In this document: in pieces, positions 1-5,444 of the stretch
Layout of the letters: each line of letters opens with the position of its first letter
Position numbering within the stretch: position 1 is the stretch's first letter
Source: Hydrogenophaga crocea
GTDB taxonomy: Bacteria > Pseudomonadota > Gammaproteobacteria > Burkholderiales > Burkholderiaceae_C
DNA length: 64,000 bases
Reading direction: 5' to 3'
Assembly (NCBI RefSeq): GCF_011388215.1
Contig: NZ_CP049989.1
Location: forward strand, 2,790,001 to 2,854,000
The notes under the pieces: generated by a model
Told to the model about the DNA's origin: nothing
The model's database searches: none
The model's input: only the letters and a program-made list of their open reading frames with translations
Made by a program: the position numbers and the translations under genes

Positions 1-1
1 G

Positions 2-316
2 CTGGAGACGCGCTTTCAGGCGCTGCTCGCGGCCAAGGCGCGCGCGGTGCGCGGCATGCTCGGCGGGCTGGGGCGCGCGGGCGCGGTGCAGCTGGACAGC
101 CGCGAGGTGGAGCCGACGGCGGACAGCATGGTGGTGCTGCTGACCTACTGGCTCAGCTACGAGTACGTGCGCGACCCGCGGCGGGCGCTCGAGCCCGAGC
201 AGGCGCAGAGCGCGCTGATGCGGGGGGCGCAGCATGTGCTGCACCAGTTGGCGCCTTACCTGGAGCCGGCGCAGCGGCAGCACCTGATGGGGCTGTCTTC
301 GGCGTATCAGCGCTGA
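2..316 (+). CDS. TetR/AcrR-family regulator, C-terminal part (partial)
   Basis: An open frame enters from the left edge and stops at 316; about 104 residues are visible. They form the helical ligand-binding and dimerisation half of a TetR-type repressor: an amphipathic stretch, a segment reading VVLLTYWLSYEYVRDPR, and the closing YLEPAQRQHLMGL typical of this group in Comamonadaceae. The DNA-binding helix-turn-helix lies outside the window, so the family call rests on the C-terminal pattern alone. Target and ligand cannot be inferred. Confidence 0.6.
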   Translation: METRFQALLAAKARAVRGMLGGLGRAGAVQLDSREVEPTADSMVVLLTYWLSYEYVRDPRRALEPEQAQSALMRGAQHVLHQLAPYLEPAQRQHLMGLSSAYQR

Positions 317-343
317 GTTTTTCTGTCCGCCTGGGTTGGCGGT

Positions 344-578
344 GTCAGGGGCGGGCCCTTCCGTGCCCTGGCTTCGATGCGGCGCCCCTCGCTGCGCGAG
401 GGGTCCCCTGCGGTGCTCGCGCAGGCGGCCCACGGCGGAACTCACTGCGCGGGCTTCGCCCGCTCCGTTCAAACAGCCGCCGTGAGTCAGTCAACGAAGC
501 GCGCTGCGCGCGCGGCCCCCTGCCCTGCGCTCCTCGGCACCGCATAGGCGCCAGGGCACGGAAGGCCCCACCCCTGAC
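344..578 (+). repeat. Structured repeat, copy A (self-complementary arms, nested hairpins)
   Basis: Outer arms 344-372 and 550-578 are reverse complements over 29 bp with 2 mismatches. The 177-bp core (373-549) holds further hairpins: 385-391 with 397-403, 431-438 with 477-484 (enclosing 449-454 with 458-463), and 499-504 with 508-513. The whole can fold as a cloverleaf. The core matches copy B in inverted orientation with about 13 differences and no gap. With its flanks it fills the 351-bp gene-free gap 317-667; nothing else is visible there. Confidence 0.85.
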
Positions 579-667
579 GGCAGACGGGTGGGTGTGAGAA
601 AGGTTTAGAGGGTATGCCCAGAGGGGCTACGAGTTGGAGCAGAAAACACGTCCTATCTTGAAGAATT

Positions 668-1543
668 TCAAGGCTTTTGGTGAGCACGATCTTCGGCAGA
701 TCGCCGAGCATTCGGGTGAAATAGCGTGGCTGCCAATGCCACGTCGAGCGCGTTTGTCCGGCGATCAGTAGAGATGTGCTTCAGCAAGCCGTACCGTTCA
801 ACAAGAGTTTTCATATTGGCGCCCCGAGGGTGTGCGCAGTTCAACATCAACAGCAGAAGCTCATCGCGATTCATCGCAGATCTCGCAATATTTGCATAGC
901 GAACCTTGTCAGACTCGCTCAGAGCACTCTTATCGATGAGGTTGAAGAGGTGGTAGGTGGTTCGGTAGAAAGGTCCAAGGACATGTTCGTTTGTGATGTA
1001 CATCTCGTCGAAATTCCTGGAGACCCATGCATAGTCCTCATCGGAAAGCACAGCGTCCTCGTGCACCGCGCCTGTTTCGGTGTCCTGCCCTGACTTCACT
1101 TGCTCCCGCAACCAATACGCAAGGGTCGCAGGATCCCCTGCATTTGGACCTGGAAAGGCAGAACCTATCACCCCGCGGAGTTCAAGTCTGAGCGCCGCAT
1201 ACATCTGATCGTGACGCTCAAGTAGCTTGAAGAACAGTGGCTCGAATGACGCCAAAGTTTGCGCTTGCAGCGTGACTTCGAGGGTGTGCTGAGCATGCTG
1301 ATTAGTCCGAAACTGAAAAAACGCCGCGACCAGAACACCAGCGAATGCGAACGCGGCAAATAAGGCGTTAACGCCCCCGAAGAGATCGCCTGTTTGGCCT
1401 AAAGTGGCCAACTCCAACTTGTTCGGCAGATTCGAAGCTACCCATTGCACTCCCCAGAAGCCCCAGGCGATCCAAAGTGCAGGGGGGACCGCGAAAGCCG
1501 CGATAGCCGCGAAGACCAAGCGCTTTGACACCGGCTTGTTCAT
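668..1543 (-). CDS. Putative phage abortive infection protein (PutAbiC type)
   Basis: 291 residues. Two N-terminal membrane segments (about 9-35 and 57-77) are followed by a soluble helical domain. The pattern fits the putative phage abortive-infection (PutAbiC) family: GQTGDLFGGVNALF directly before the second membrane helix, then SFEPLFFKLLERHDQM, then FYRTTYHLFNLID and YANIARSAMNRDELLLLMLNC, ending near VERYGLLKHI. The ATG at 1543 has a GGGAGA-like ribosome site close by. Membrane-anchored Abi proteins of this sort are thought to sense infection and halt growth; that role is family knowledge, not shown here. Base composition is clearly lower in GC than the neighbours, and the gene lies alone between inverted repeats, which suggests acquisition. 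Confidence 0.75.
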   Translation of the reverse strand: MNKPVSKRLVFAAIAAFAVPPALWIAWGFWGVQWVASNLPNKLELATLGQTGDLFGGVNALFAAFAFAGVLVAAFFQFRTNQHAQHTLEVTLQAQTLASFEPLFFKLLERHDQMYAALRLELRGVIGSAFPGPNAGDPATLAYWLREQVKSGQDTETGAVHEDAVLSDEDYAWVSRNFDEMYITNEHVLGPFYRTTYHLFNLIDKSALSESDKVRYANIARSAMNRDELLLLMLNCAHPRGANMKTLVERYGLLKHISTDRRTNALDVALAATLFHPNARRSAEDRAHQKP

Positions 1544-1623
1544 TTCTCCCTACTAGCCCGCGAAAGCAGGCATCCGCTTGATTCGCAAGGGCTGCCATCC
1601 TAAACCGCTCCCTGCCCACACCG

Positions 1624-1862
1624 CCGAGGGCTTGGGTGCCCGGTGTGCGGTGGCGCCTGTGCGGCGCCGAGGAGCGCAGGGCGGGCGGCCGCGCGCGCAG
1701 CGCGCTTCGTTGACTAACTCACGGCGGCTGTTTGAACGGAGCGGGCGCAGCCCGCGCAGTGAGTTCCGCCGTGGGTCGTCCGCCCGAGCACCACAGGGAA
1801 CCCCTCGCGCAGCGAGGGGCGCCGCACCGAAGCCACCGCGCACCGGGCATCCAAGCCCTCGG
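1624..1862 (-). repeat. Structured repeat, copy B (inverted relative to copy A)
   Basis: Outer arms 1624-1654 and 1832-1862 are reverse complements over 31 bp with 2 mismatches, both readable as G-U pairs. The arm sequence is unrelated to that of copy A, yet the 177-bp core (1655-1831) is about 93% identical to copy A in reverse orientation, with all nested hairpins kept. It occupies most of the gap 1544-1891, upstream of the PutAbiC gene. Nothing else is recognised in that gap. Confidence 0.85.
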
Positions 1863-1891
1863 CCCGCCAGCGGCAGCAGCAGCACAGCAAG

Positions 1892-2989
1892 TCAGGCCGT
1901 CAACCCATCCACCGCCTGGAACAGCGCCTGCCGCGCCTGGCTGATGATCTGCCCGCGCCAGGTGTCGGTGTCGGTGTAGAACGCGTTGAGCACGCGCTGC
2001 TTGATTTGCGCCTGCAGTTCGGCCGGCGCGTCGGGGTGCTGGTGCAGCCAGTGGTCGCCGCGCAGCGAACCGATCACCTCGGGCACCGGCACTGTGCCGT
2101 ACTCCAGCGCAATGCCGGTGTATTCGGCCTGCGGGCACTCTTCGTACACCGACGCCCACATCAGCCCCGTGAGCTGCGCCGAGGTCGACGAACCGTCGTA
2201 GATGCTGGTGACCGGCGTGGCGCCGTTGCCGCCCCACCAGGCGCGTGCGCGGGCCAGCGCGGCGGGCTCGTCGCGGCAGGCGCAGATGCGCTCGCCCACA
2301 CCATTGGGGCCCAGGCCGGTGTGCAGGTCGATCCAGGCGATGCGCTTGGCGGCCTGCGCGTGCTCGCGCAGGATGCGGCGCACCGTGCCGTTGTTCCAGG
2401 TGGGCGCGGTGCCGCCAAAGAACAGGCCGTCGGCGAACGCGTGCTGGCCCATGGTCACCGCGGCCTGGAAAGCCAGCATGCCGTGCGCGCCGATCCACGC
2501 GCCCACGGCCGCGTCGTTCTCGGGCGTGGGCGGCCAGGTGTCGGGCAGCAGCAGCGGGTGCAGCGAGGCATAGGCCTCGTTCACCGGCAGCGGCTTGGAG
2601 AAGTCCTGGAAGTTGCGGTTGAGGTCGACGTTCTCGTGCGTCACGCGGCGCAGCCACGAAAAGCCGTGCGGGTTGAGCGCGTGCACGTAGAGCACGGCCA
2701 CACCCGCGTCGCGGGCCTTGGCCTGCCACTCGGCGTCGTGCGCGGCGAACACCTGCACGCCCGAGCCGCAGAAGCCTTCCACGCCGTGGCAGGCGCTGCT
2801 CACGATCAGCAGGTGCCGCGCGTCGGGCGAGCCGGCCAGCGCCACGTCGGTGGCCAGGGTTTCGCCGTCGCGGCCCTTGAGCGGGTGCTCGTGGCTGCGG
2901 ATGGCCATGCCCGCGGCCGCGGCGGCCTCGAGGAACTTGCGGCGGGCTTGGGCGTAGCTGGTGGAGAAGGCGTCGTTGATGCCGATCAC
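1892..2989 (-). CDS. DUF2817 (M14-like zinc carboxypeptidase/deacylase) protein
   Basis: 365 residues from a GTG start. The GTG overlaps the TGA of the upstream amidohydrolase gene as GTGA, so translation is probably coupled. The fold is M14-like: HGVEG gives the zinc ligands H68 and E71, ENVDLNRNF follows near 120, WIDLHTGLG gives H223, and IALEYGT gives the probable catalytic E296. No signal peptide is seen, so the protein is probably cytoplasmic. Family members are zinc hydrolases acting on peptides or acylated small molecules; the substrate is unknown. The operon with an M20 amidohydrolase and an amino-acid binding protein suggests breakdown of an imported N-acyl amino acid or peptide. 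Confidence 0.8.
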   Translation of the reverse strand: MIGINDAFSTSYAQARRKFLEAAAAAGMAIRSHEHPLKGRDGETLATDVALAGSPDARHLLIVSSACHGVEGFCGSGVQVFAAHDAEWQAKARDAGVAVLYVHALNPHGFSWLRRVTHENVDLNRNFQDFSKPLPVNEAYASLHPLLLPDTWPPTPENDAAVGAWIGAHGMLAFQAAVTMGQHAFADGLFFGGTAPTWNNGTVRRILREHAQAAKRIAWIDLHTGLGPNGVGERICACRDEPAALARARAWWGGNGATPVTSIYDGSSTSAQLTGLMWASVYEECPQAEYTGIALEYGTVPVPEVIGSLRGDHWLHQHPDAPAELQAQIKQRVLNAFYTDTDTWRGQIISQARQALFQAVDGLTA

Positions 2990-4206
2990 GCGGCACCCCC
3001 GGCACGGCGCGGACGGGCCAGCCACTGCTCGGTGAGCTGCACCCAGAAGGTGGCGCCGAGCGGGATCAGGTCGTCGTTGAAGTCGTAGCTGGGGTTGTGC
3101 AGCATGCAGGGGCCGTCGCCGTGGCCGCTGTCGCGGTGCGTGCCGTCGCCGTTGGCGATGAACAGGTAGCAACCAGGCCGGGCCTGCAGCATGTAGGCGA
3201 AGTCTTCGGCGCCCATGGTGGGCTCCTGCTCCACCACGCGCTCGGCGCCCACGATGCCCGCGAGCACTTCGCGCGCGAACGCGGTTTCCTCGGGGTGGTT
3301 CACGGTGGGCGGGTAGTTGCGGTTGAACTGGAACTCCACCGTGGTGCCGTAGGCGGCGGCGGTGTGCTCGGCGATCTCGCGCATGCGGCGCTCGATCAGG
3401 TCGAGCACCTCGTAGGTGAAGGTGCGCACCGTGCCGCGCAGCTCGGCGTGGTCGGGCACCACGTTGTTCGCTTCGCCGGTGTGGATCATGGTCACCGAGA
3501 TCACGCCCGCGTCCACCGGCTTCTTGTTGCGCGTGATGATGGTCTGGAAGCCCATCACCATCTGGCAGGCAACGGGCACCGGGTCGATGCCGTTGTGCGG
3601 CAGCGCGGCGTGCGCGCCCTTGCCGCGGATGGTGATGGTGAAGTCGTTGCTCGACGCCATCACCGGGCCGCTGCTGACCGCGAAGCTGCCCGCGGGCAGG
3701 CCGGGCCAGTTGTGCATGCCGAACACGGCCTCGACCGGGAATTCGGTGAACAGGCCGTCCTTGATCATTTCGCGCGCGCCGCCGCCGCCCTCTTCCGCGG
3801 GCTGGAAGATCAGGTAGACGGTGCCGTCGAAGTTGCGGTGCTTCGCAAAATGCTGCGCCGCAGCGAGCAGCATCGCGGTGTGGCCGTCGTGGCCGCAGGC
3901 GTGCATCTTGCCGGCGTGCTTGCTCGCGTGCGCGAAGTGGTTGTGCTCCTGCATGGGCAGGGCGTCCATGTCGGCGCGCAGGCCGATGGCGCGGCCGCAG
4001 GCGCCGCCGTCGCGGCCGTGCACGATGCCGACCACACCGGTGGTGCCCATGCCGCGGCGCACGGGAATGCCCCATTCGGTGAGCTTGGCGGCCACCACGT
4101 CGGCGGTGCGGACCTCTTCGAAGCAGAGTTCGGGGTGGGCGTGGATGTCGCGCCGCACGGCCGCGATCTCCGCGGCCTGCGTGACGATGGAATCGATCAG
4201 TTTCAT
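2986..4206 (-). CDS. M20 family amidohydrolase (hippurate / N-acyl amino acid hydrolase type)
   Basis: 406 residues. Start ATG 4206 is chosen because GGAGACC lies just upstream; an in-frame ATG at 4242 lacks this. Metal-site motifs are clear: DMDALPM near 79-85, ACGHDGHTAM with C104 and H106, and PAEEGGGGA with the catalytic glutamate. The central lid/dimerisation domain is present. The length is normal for the HipO/AmhX group. It would remove acyl groups from N-acyl amino acids in the cytoplasm. Its stop overlaps the DUF2817 start. The LivJ-type gene lies upstream on the same strand, which fits an uptake-and-cleavage operon. Confidence 0.88.
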   Translation of the reverse strand: MKLIDSIVTQAAEIAAVRRDIHAHPELCFEEVRTADVVAAKLTEWGIPVRRGMGTTGVVGIVHGRDGGACGRAIGLRADMDALPMQEHNHFAHASKHAGKMHACGHDGHTAMLLAAAQHFAKHRNFDGTVYLIFQPAEEGGGGAREMIKDGLFTEFPVEAVFGMHNWPGLPAGSFAVSSGPVMASSNDFTITIRGKGAHAALPHNGIDPVPVACQMVMGFQTIITRNKKPVDAGVISVTMIHTGEANNVVPDHAELRGTVRTFTYEVLDLIERRMREIAEHTAAAYGTTVEFQFNRNYPPTVNHPEETAFAREVLAGIVGAERVVEQEPTMGAEDFAYMLQARPGCYLFIANGDGTHRDSGHGDGPCMLHNPSYDFNDDLIPLGATFWVQLTEQWLARPRRAGGAA

Positions 4207-4292: not shown

Positions 4293-5444
4293 TCAGCGGC
4301 GGATGCGGCCGTCCTCGGTGAGCAGGGTCATCTCGACGAACTTCGAACCCGTGTGCTTGTTCGGCCCGAAGTCGAGCGGAAAGCCGCCCAGGTCGAGGTT
4401 GCGCATGCCCTGCAGCGCGTTGATGAAGCCCTCGCGCGAGACGCCGCGGCCCGCGCGGTTGAGCGCCTCCACGAAGACCTTGGCGGCCACGAAGCCCTCG
4501 ATGCCCGAGTAATTGGGCGCGCGGCCCTGCTTGGCGCGCACCGCGGCCAGGTACTCGCCCGAGATCGGCGACACCGGTGCGTAGGGGAACGGCATCACCT
4601 GGCTCACGGCCACGCCACGCGCGTCCTTGCCGAGCTCATCGAGCAGGGCCTGAGTGCCCACGAAGGACACGTTGTAGAGGTTGCCCGCGAAGCCCGCCTT
4701 GCGCGACTCGCGGATGAAGGCGGCGCACGATTTGTAGGCGCTGATCTGCACGATGGCCTCGGGCCGGCCGGCCATGATGGCCTTGACCGATTCGCTCACG
4801 TCCACCGTGTTGCGCTCCACCGTGCCGGTGGAGGCAGGCTCCATGTTCTGGGCCTTGAGCGCGCGCGTCACGCCTTCGAGACCGGCCTTGCCGTAGGCAT
4901 CGTTCTGGTAGAAGACCGAGATGCGCTTGATGCCCACCGCGGTGAGCTGGCGCACGATGGCCGCGGTCTCGTCGAAGTACGAGGCCCGCACGTGGATGGC
5001 GTAGCGATTGAAGGGCTCGCGCAGCGCCTCGGCGCCGGTGAACGGCGCGAAAAACGGCACCTTGGCCTCGGTGGCCAAGGGCAAGGCCACCACGCTGGTG
5101 GGCGTGCCGATGTAGCCGAACAGGGCGAACACGCCCTCGCCGATGAACTGTTTGGTGTTGGCCGCGCACTTCTCGGGCTCGTAGCCGTCGTCGAGCCGCT
5201 TGAGCTCGATGCGCCGGCCATGCACGCCGCCCTTGTTGTTGACCTGCTCGAAGAACAGCTGCGCGCCCAGGTGGAACTGCAGGCCGAGCTGCTCGGCCGC
5301 GCCGCTGAACGGGGCCGACTGGCCCAGCACCACGGTGGTGTCGCTCAGCCCCCCGGACTGCGCGTCCGCGCGGCCGGACAACAGGGCCAGGCCGGGCAAG
5401 GTGGCGGCGCCGGCAGCGGCGCGCAGAAGGTGACGGCGTCTCAT
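4293..5444 (-). CDS. Branched-chain amino-acid ABC transporter substrate-binding protein
   Basis: 383 residues from ATG 5444, which has AGGAG eight bases upstream; a GTG at 5453 is less well placed. It begins MRRRHLLRAAAG, an arginine-rich signal with a hydrophobic core ending near ADAQ, so export to the periplasm is expected. The mature part follows the LivJ/Peripla_BP_6 pattern: TVVLGQSAPFSG at the N-terminus, FEQVNNKGGVHGR, LFGYIGTPTS and VFYQNDAYGK. No permease or ATPase is adjacent, so it must borrow a Liv system elsewhere. Gene order places it first in the run with the two hydrolases. Confidence 0.85.
   Translation of the reverse strand: MRRRHLLRAAAGAATLPGLALLSGRADAQSGGLSDTTVVLGQSAPFSGAAEQLGLQFHLGAQLFFEQVNNKGGVHGRRIELKRLDDGYEPEKCAANTKQFIGEGVFALFGYIGTPTSVVALPLATEAKVPFFAPFTGAEALREPFNRYAIHVRASYFDETAAIVRQLTAVGIKRISVFYQNDAYGKAGLEGVTRALKAQNMEPASTGTVERNTVDVSESVKAIMAGRPEAIVQISAYKSCAAFIRESRKAGFAGNLYNVSFVGTQALLDELGKDARGVAVSQVMPFPYAPVSPISGEYLAAVRAKQGRAPNYSGIEGFVAAKVFVEALNRAGRGVSREGFINALQGMRNLDLGGFPLDFGPNKHTGSKFVEMTLLTEDGRIRR

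Follow-up and report, generated by a model that had tools for sequence, protein, structure and literature searches.

The low-GC gene near the start of the window (the whole stretch of 64,000 nucleotides analysed here, from contig NZ_CP049989.1 of Hydrogenophaga crocea) lies between two facing hairpin repeats, and this arrangement is probably a loaded member of a family-wide class of MITE-like paired-hairpin elements, whose interior would serve as an exchangeable gene slot with its cargo turned over mainly by recombination between one half and another. The paired element would consist of two imperfect palindromes of ~240 bp that face each other; its usual form would be empty, with the halves almost abutting, and when loaded it would hold a single short low-GC gene, or a few of them, such as the putAbiC-domain gene of the window. 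The repeats pair convergently, their fold covaries, related genomes hold differing or no cargo at the same site, and halves often match those at other sites. The larger finding is this repeat family, beyond the confirmed observation in the window. Genomes are denoted here by G numbers (G000 is the genome of the window, a single contig), loci by L numbers, and halves by site and genome, as in s1_G032.

The left half (type 1) spans 333..578 on the plus strand, with an outer tip GGGTTGGCGG from 333 and a hairpin at 344-578, and the right half (type 2) spans 1623..1871 on the minus strand, with a hairpin at 1623-1863 and an outer tip reaching to 1871. Similar outer tips are present on other copies of the family. 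The hairpins, ~240 bp each, are convergent, and their conserved cores of 191 nt (369..559 on the plus strand and 1645..1835 on the minus strand), which define the HMM and covariance-model family, are 92% complementary to each other. The outer ~43-46 bp are unlike in sequence between the two copies, yet self-complementary inside each. In the left half the copy-specific arm 344..386 pairs with 536..578 at 86% (both plus strand, forming covarying helix 1), and in the right half 1623-1668 pairs with 1818-1863 at 89%. Both repeats are imperfect palindromes which fold as single-stranded DNA better than 200 of 200 shuffles (z -5.88 and -5.77); the earlier note had called them structured. The element is flanked by the C-terminus of a TetR-family gene (2..316, plus strand) and by a DUF2817 gene (1892..3004, minus strand), both directed toward it. 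Long chance open reading frames run across the repeats at 1-597, 345-545 and 1553-1885, and could get annotated as hypothetical proteins.

One gene, at 668..1543 on the minus strand, occupies the interval between the hairpins, and the lone gene between inverted repeats that the earlier note had described is thus borne out. Its 291-aa product matches Pfam putAbiC (PF16872) with an E-value of 5.7e-18 and 65.6 bits against a cut-off of 22, which supports the PutAbiC assignment, and the match is confined to residues 185-259. Two hydrophobic stretches, read by eye from the sequence of the N-terminal ~90 residues, would fit the proposed membrane protein. The protein shares this C-terminal domain and N-terminal hydrophobic region with the putAbiC family, and differs in that its defence assignment is by name only and it matches no solved fold: the AF2 model (mean pLDDT 89.1, pTM 0.75) gave no fold match in the PDB at E <= 0.001. 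PADLOC returned AbiP (5.6e-5) and AbiC (2.5e-4), both weak profile matches only, and a phage-defence role, which takes its cue from the domain name, is possible. The lower GC noted earlier was reproduced by calculation, with 54.6% in the gene and 54.8% in the interior against 70.1% in the window, and the 13 lowest-GC windows of 876 bp (50-bp steps over the 64 kb) all begin at 301-901. In agreement with the earlier note, no transposase was seen between the repeats when the frames were inspected by eye, with Pfam run on the putAbiC frame only.

Among the 67 genomes of the genus, 4 others encode a relative of the protein, all distant (at best 40% identity across 83 residues), and its 67-75% identical relatives occur only on short contigs, the longest of 19.8 kb. 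The putAbiC domain was present in 11 of 250 family genomes, the window's included, and none of the other ten matches lay between repeats within 1.5 kb each side. In the reading favoured here, the putAbiC-domain gene would be accessory cargo of the element. The description of the locus as a single-gene defence cassette holds for a single-gene insert bounded by non-autonomous repeats and finds no support as a general reading, since the slots carry many kinds of cargo besides putAbiC, PADLOC matched none of 10 further cargo proteins at E 0.1, and the only repeat-flanked putAbiC match of the eleven is the window's own. A defence-only cassette was accordingly rejected.

The fold of the repeat family is strongly supported. 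Among 30 halves, 55 of 87 pairs have changed on both sides, and 508 double-change cells were observed against 160.1 (sd 9.2) in shuffles and 52-97 with the partner slid, while further pair types did not exceed the shuffles in the same 30 halves (95 against 102.7). Two fixed non-Watson-Crick pairs were seen in fold alignment A1, T.G at columns 46-225 in 30/30 halves and G.T at columns 92-202 in 29/30. Strand bias was determined in 158 copies, which remained from 185 full-length copies with flanks after removal of near-duplicates. Mismatches in the 63 pairs that are more than 70% Watson-Crick comprised 243 A.C, 70 G.T and 468 others. After 80% clustering (78 sequences, 60 pairs) A.C was in excess at 32 pairs against 6 with G.T excess, with a p-value of 2.4e-5 that serves as a guide only because related copies are not independent. 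In 144 of 158 copies the better RNA fold is that of the complementary, outward strand. An A.C mismatch becomes G.T or G.U when the opposite strand is read, so selection seems to act on the fold of the strand reading outward from the pair, through either RNA or strand-specific DNA folding. It is rather improbable that the halves act via RNA, each encoding a structured outward-read regulator, terminator or guide with the gene between them incidental; the A.C excess, the better outward RNA fold and the orientation of neighbouring genes, which point to the element at 117 of the 181 flanks called, would suit this, but the same bias is expected from strand-specific folding of single-stranded DNA, and Rfam (window 1-3000, E up to 1) gave no match over the repeats, its one match lying outside them and below the gathering score.

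In G000 copies occur at three loci, each a facing pair: the window, L009, where the pair encloses a 401-aa MauJ-domain gene, and L010, with ~125 bp between the halves and one half internally deleted. Across the genus, BLAST at E <= 0.001 found the repeat in 29 of 67 genomes, of which 21 are firm because the other 8 have best E-values above 1e-5. In a sample of family genomes, with ten candidates scored per genome, the covariance model detected the core at E <= 1e-5 in 138 of 250 genomes and 88 of 141 genera. The pattern-scan matches listed include at least the genera Hydrogenophaga, Rubrivivax, Aquabacterium, Methylibium, Rhizobacter, Albitalea, Inhella, Pelomonas, Aquincola, Variovorax, Rhodoferax and Ramlibacter. 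Copy numbers reach, for example, 16 matches in G007, and G047 holds many clade-B copies. Residence of the repeats on plasmids or phages was rejected; plasmid records gave one weak match and phage records none.

Pairing was surveyed at 248 loci, chosen for holding a copy, where 409 profile hits gave 403 copies once six cases of same-strand hits less than 260 bp apart had been merged as fragments of one copy. Each of the 151 neighbour pairs within 3 kb was convergent, and they represent 134 distinct places at 98% identity, and four divergent neighbour pairs lay 4.8-7.4 kb apart. Two of the merged cases, L218 and L243, look like partial tandem duplications within a half, and L391, an exception to facing pairs from outside the survey, holds two same-strand partial copies ~280 bp apart (2554-3031) downstream of another putAbiC gene. 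Because of these same-strand partial copies at L218, L243 and L391, the pairing rule is strict for whole halves and not for fragments. The core-to-core gap was at most 300 bp in 130 of the 151 pairs, 77 of them at 100-149 bp, and empty pairs measure ~550 bp and are non-coding as judged by eye. A single copy was present at 99 of 248 loci, many at contig or locus ends.

Opposed palindromes with compensatory changes recall REP, BIME and REPIN repeats spread by RAYT (Y1) transposases, and PMC2817692 describes REP doublets in opposed orientation with complementary changes. The paired element shares with these its paired palindromes and extragenic location, and differs in its few copies per genome in the genomes searched, its lack of linkage to Y1 genes and the genes in its slot. 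REPs are far shorter than its units of ~240 bp. The Y1 domain is present in 58 of 67 genus genomes, but it does not track the repeat (27/29 against 31/38 genomes, Fisher p 0.28) and no repeat copy occurred at any of the 30 Y1 loci examined (of 60 matches). RAYT as a partner was rejected for want of this linkage, and we regard an origin as RAYT-spread repeats as very improbable.

Twelve distinct pairs with a core gap above 500 bp carry genes (15 rows including three duplicates), and L058, L066 and L446 are three more loaded loci, with the insert beside a damaged half. Besides putAbiC in the window and MauJ in L009, L047 carries DUF6678 with small frames, and L049 the remnant of an integron integrase together with two unknown genes. 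Proteins of 150 aa and 216 aa are encoded in L067 and L066, respectively. L058 holds YdeI/OmdA beside an XRE-type protein, L446 a P-loop protein, L211 DUF1963 and L242 YefM-YoeB with a PEP-CTERM protein, and unknown proteins are found in L229, L319, L324, L325 and L337. The interior GC was 50-61% against 67-72% around it in 13 of the 14 loaded inserts compared, the exception being L058 with 64.5%; the L446 insert has 60%. Between the right half of the window and the gene start lies a leader (1560..1607, minus strand) whose TTTAGGATGG resembles the TAGGATG-plus-CGGCC leader on the type-2 side of L047, L049, L058, L064, L066 and L067, in an alignment of 8 chosen sequences with no shuffle control. 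L446 has a like leader by eye, and in L009 a comparable stretch lies on the left. The leader may act as a promoter. The idea that cargo reads away from the type-2 half fits the window, L047, L058, L066 and L067 and fails in L049, with L009 unassignable, and was dropped as resting on too few cases.

Integron cassettes typically contain toxin-antitoxin genes, YdeI and small unknown proteins, and papers exist on chromosomal class 1 integrons of betaproteobacteria. The slot genes, which resemble this cassette content, might then be decayed chromosomal integron or orphan cassettes with lost or truncated attC sites, the repeats having bounded an old integron. L049 in G007 fits such an origin: its slot holds a broken integron-integrase C-terminus at 3266-3544 (TIGR02249, E 1.7e-12, 47.3 bits against a cut-off of 265), and after its last gene, at 5346-5385, a GCCTAAC (5346) is followed ~26 nt on by a GTTGAAC, fitting the R'' and R' consensus. 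This attC-like but short motif pair could be a truncated attC. However, the integrase remnant occurs in one slot only and no intact intI was found in an element, no repeat was present at 15 loci around TIGR02249 matches, and 5 inserts gave no match in a strict R''/R' search (45-150 nt, >= 6/7 complementary), whose limits were too narrow for the short motif of L049. The 18.8-kb contig G007:C77 carries a full-length integron integrase at 10170-11183 of L137 (508 bits), with no repeats in the stretch compared. Exchangeable short accessory genes and structured sites with strand bias are shared with integron cassettes and CALINs, as are the one integrase remnant and motif pair of L049; the paired element differs from them in having two structures that face each other rather than a single site for each gene, no full attC in the 5 inserts and no intact integrase nearby. 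An integron cassette in the strict sense was rejected on the empty strict search and the 15 integron-integrase loci, and descent from a decayed integron is improbable, though slightly less so in view of the L049 motif pair.

Related genomes were found to hold different cargo, or none, at one and the same chromosomal site. At site 1, G007, G032 and G051 share flanks and hold three inserts that have no DNA in common, save for ~58 bp in G007 and G032 adjoining the type-2 half; in G036 both flanks are present, each with a half, on contigs ending inside. The same site is empty in G000, with about 40 bp and a tip-like remnant, and in G045, with about 50 bp. The remnant in G000 (L443, 954-994) reads CTTGATCGGCGGGTGTCAG, resembles a tip and looks like the product of a deletion of the element via a shared TCAG. 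Site 2 holds three different inserts in G007, G036 and G003 and is empty in G000 (about 33 bp), and in G032, G008 and G045 only one flank was matched in the stretch compared, with no repeat. The other cargo and empty sites that the earlier note had looked for between the same repeats were hence found, at two other sites in the genus. At the tetR-DUF2817 junction itself repeats are not universal. Among 58 other genomes with a DUF2817 match, 29 other DUF2817 loci were compared; 17 have tetR within 1.5 kb and no repeat match, and 12 have no tetR within 1.5 kb. Two of these 12 show traces of the repeat, a partial type-2 half beside DUF2817 near a contig end in G008 and a weak partial match in L115 (E 2.9e-4). 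In G008 (L089, 2627-3166) the type-2 half is placed as in the window and breaks off before an open frame, which we take to be the start of an IS110-like transposase.

The kinship of the halves was determined from 21 type-2 halves, 13 of them at sites in two or more genomes, and 10 of these 13 are nearest to a half at another site. Two cases are clearest: the s1_G032 and s2_G007 halves are 97.6% identical, and the flanks of G007 and G032 92-93%; the s2_G036 and s3_G008 halves are 93.3% identical, and the site-3 flank of G036 and G008 88.8%. Ortholog pairs of halves at sites 2-4 are only 77.5-82.0% identical against 82-91% for the flanks. Speaking against exchange, half and flank identities agree at site 1 among G007, G032 and G036 (93.3%, 87.2%), so that the halves appear vertical there, and the halves at site 8 are 98.8% identical. 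At 99.0% identity to s1_G036, s6_G036 may be a recent copy out of site 1. For the right half of the window the best identity among the 21 was 80.9%, and no exchange is demonstrable for it since it has no close relative among those compared. Recombination between halves would explain this pattern, as read from sequence identity rather than from base-level joints. Against it, non-orthologous halves could also arise if insertion were targeted more than once to the same 3' ends, and non-coding halves may diverge faster than flanks. Because one half is damaged in L058, L066 and L446, some changes are plain deletions.

Bacterial MITEs and MITE-bounded units, which include the integron mobilization unit and TIME elements, resemble the repeat family in being non-coding and multicopy, with inverted tips, no transposase and passengers between copies. 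In clade B, inverted tips of the TTGCACCTCGCG/CGCGAGGTGCAA type close the thirteen aligned elements and several genomes hold multiple copies, while a GGTTGGCGG-type tip is present on many outer ends of clade A. A composite transposon-like unit, in which two MITE copies form the ends and the loaded unit is moved as a whole by a transposase acting in trans, is on this ground the more serious of the alternatives, although we hold it to be unlikely; different cargos at one site would then have arrived separately, by insertion at a preferred target, for instance the 3' ends of genes. The neighbouring genes agree with such a target, as among 121 pairs tested the 67 with both neighbours called comprised 45 tandem, 19 convergent and only 3 divergent gaps, and PMC10969869 describes MITE-flanked class 1 integrons and cassettes. 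On the other hand, no target duplication was found in the comparisons made, and no Pfam transposase match was obtained among the cargo proteins searched (20 plus one). Besides, the junctions at site 1, compared by eye, have flank sequence common to several genomes, which favours a single old insertion with later exchange rather than repeated insertion. Clean pre-insertion sites were found neither for clade B, where the intergenic regions are too different between the genomes compared, nor for the young solo copy L060, where the flanks of the closest relative stop at contig ends. The paired element also departs from MITEs in that each end is a covarying hairpin of ~240 bp, the ends nearly abut when empty, the cargo varies at fixed sites, and neither target duplication nor a cognate transposase was found in these comparisons and cargo searches. 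A literature search over titles and abstract openings, covering few subscription papers, returned no description of this repeat family.

In the reading we favour, slots refilled by recombination, the pairs would have spread long ago through a transposase acting in trans, as the inverted tips of clade B suggest. At sites already in place the cargo would since have turned over, chiefly because homologous halves recombine, either ectopically or with incoming DNA; the halves and the leader would serve as homology arms. Eukaryotic foldback elements have long inverted repeats with a variable middle, and the paired element resembles them in both respects, by analogy and with no kinship implied. It is unlikely that the hairpins form a gene-capture system of their own, in which two strand-specific folded sites and the leader make up the slot and a recombinase in trans puts in, takes out or exchanges single genes. 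If this were true, it would be an integron-like function on facing giant hairpins across a bacterial family.

The repeat family, with its covarying fold, pairing rule and foreign genes, is present in more than half of the genomes sampled from a large bacterial family. Foreign genes at fixed sites that differ among related genomes signify a route by which genes are gained with no recognised integrase, transposase or phage. The flanking hairpins provide a list of sites for finding accessory genes, some of them possibly anti-phage, and the paired hairpins offer a testable system for structure-specific recombination.
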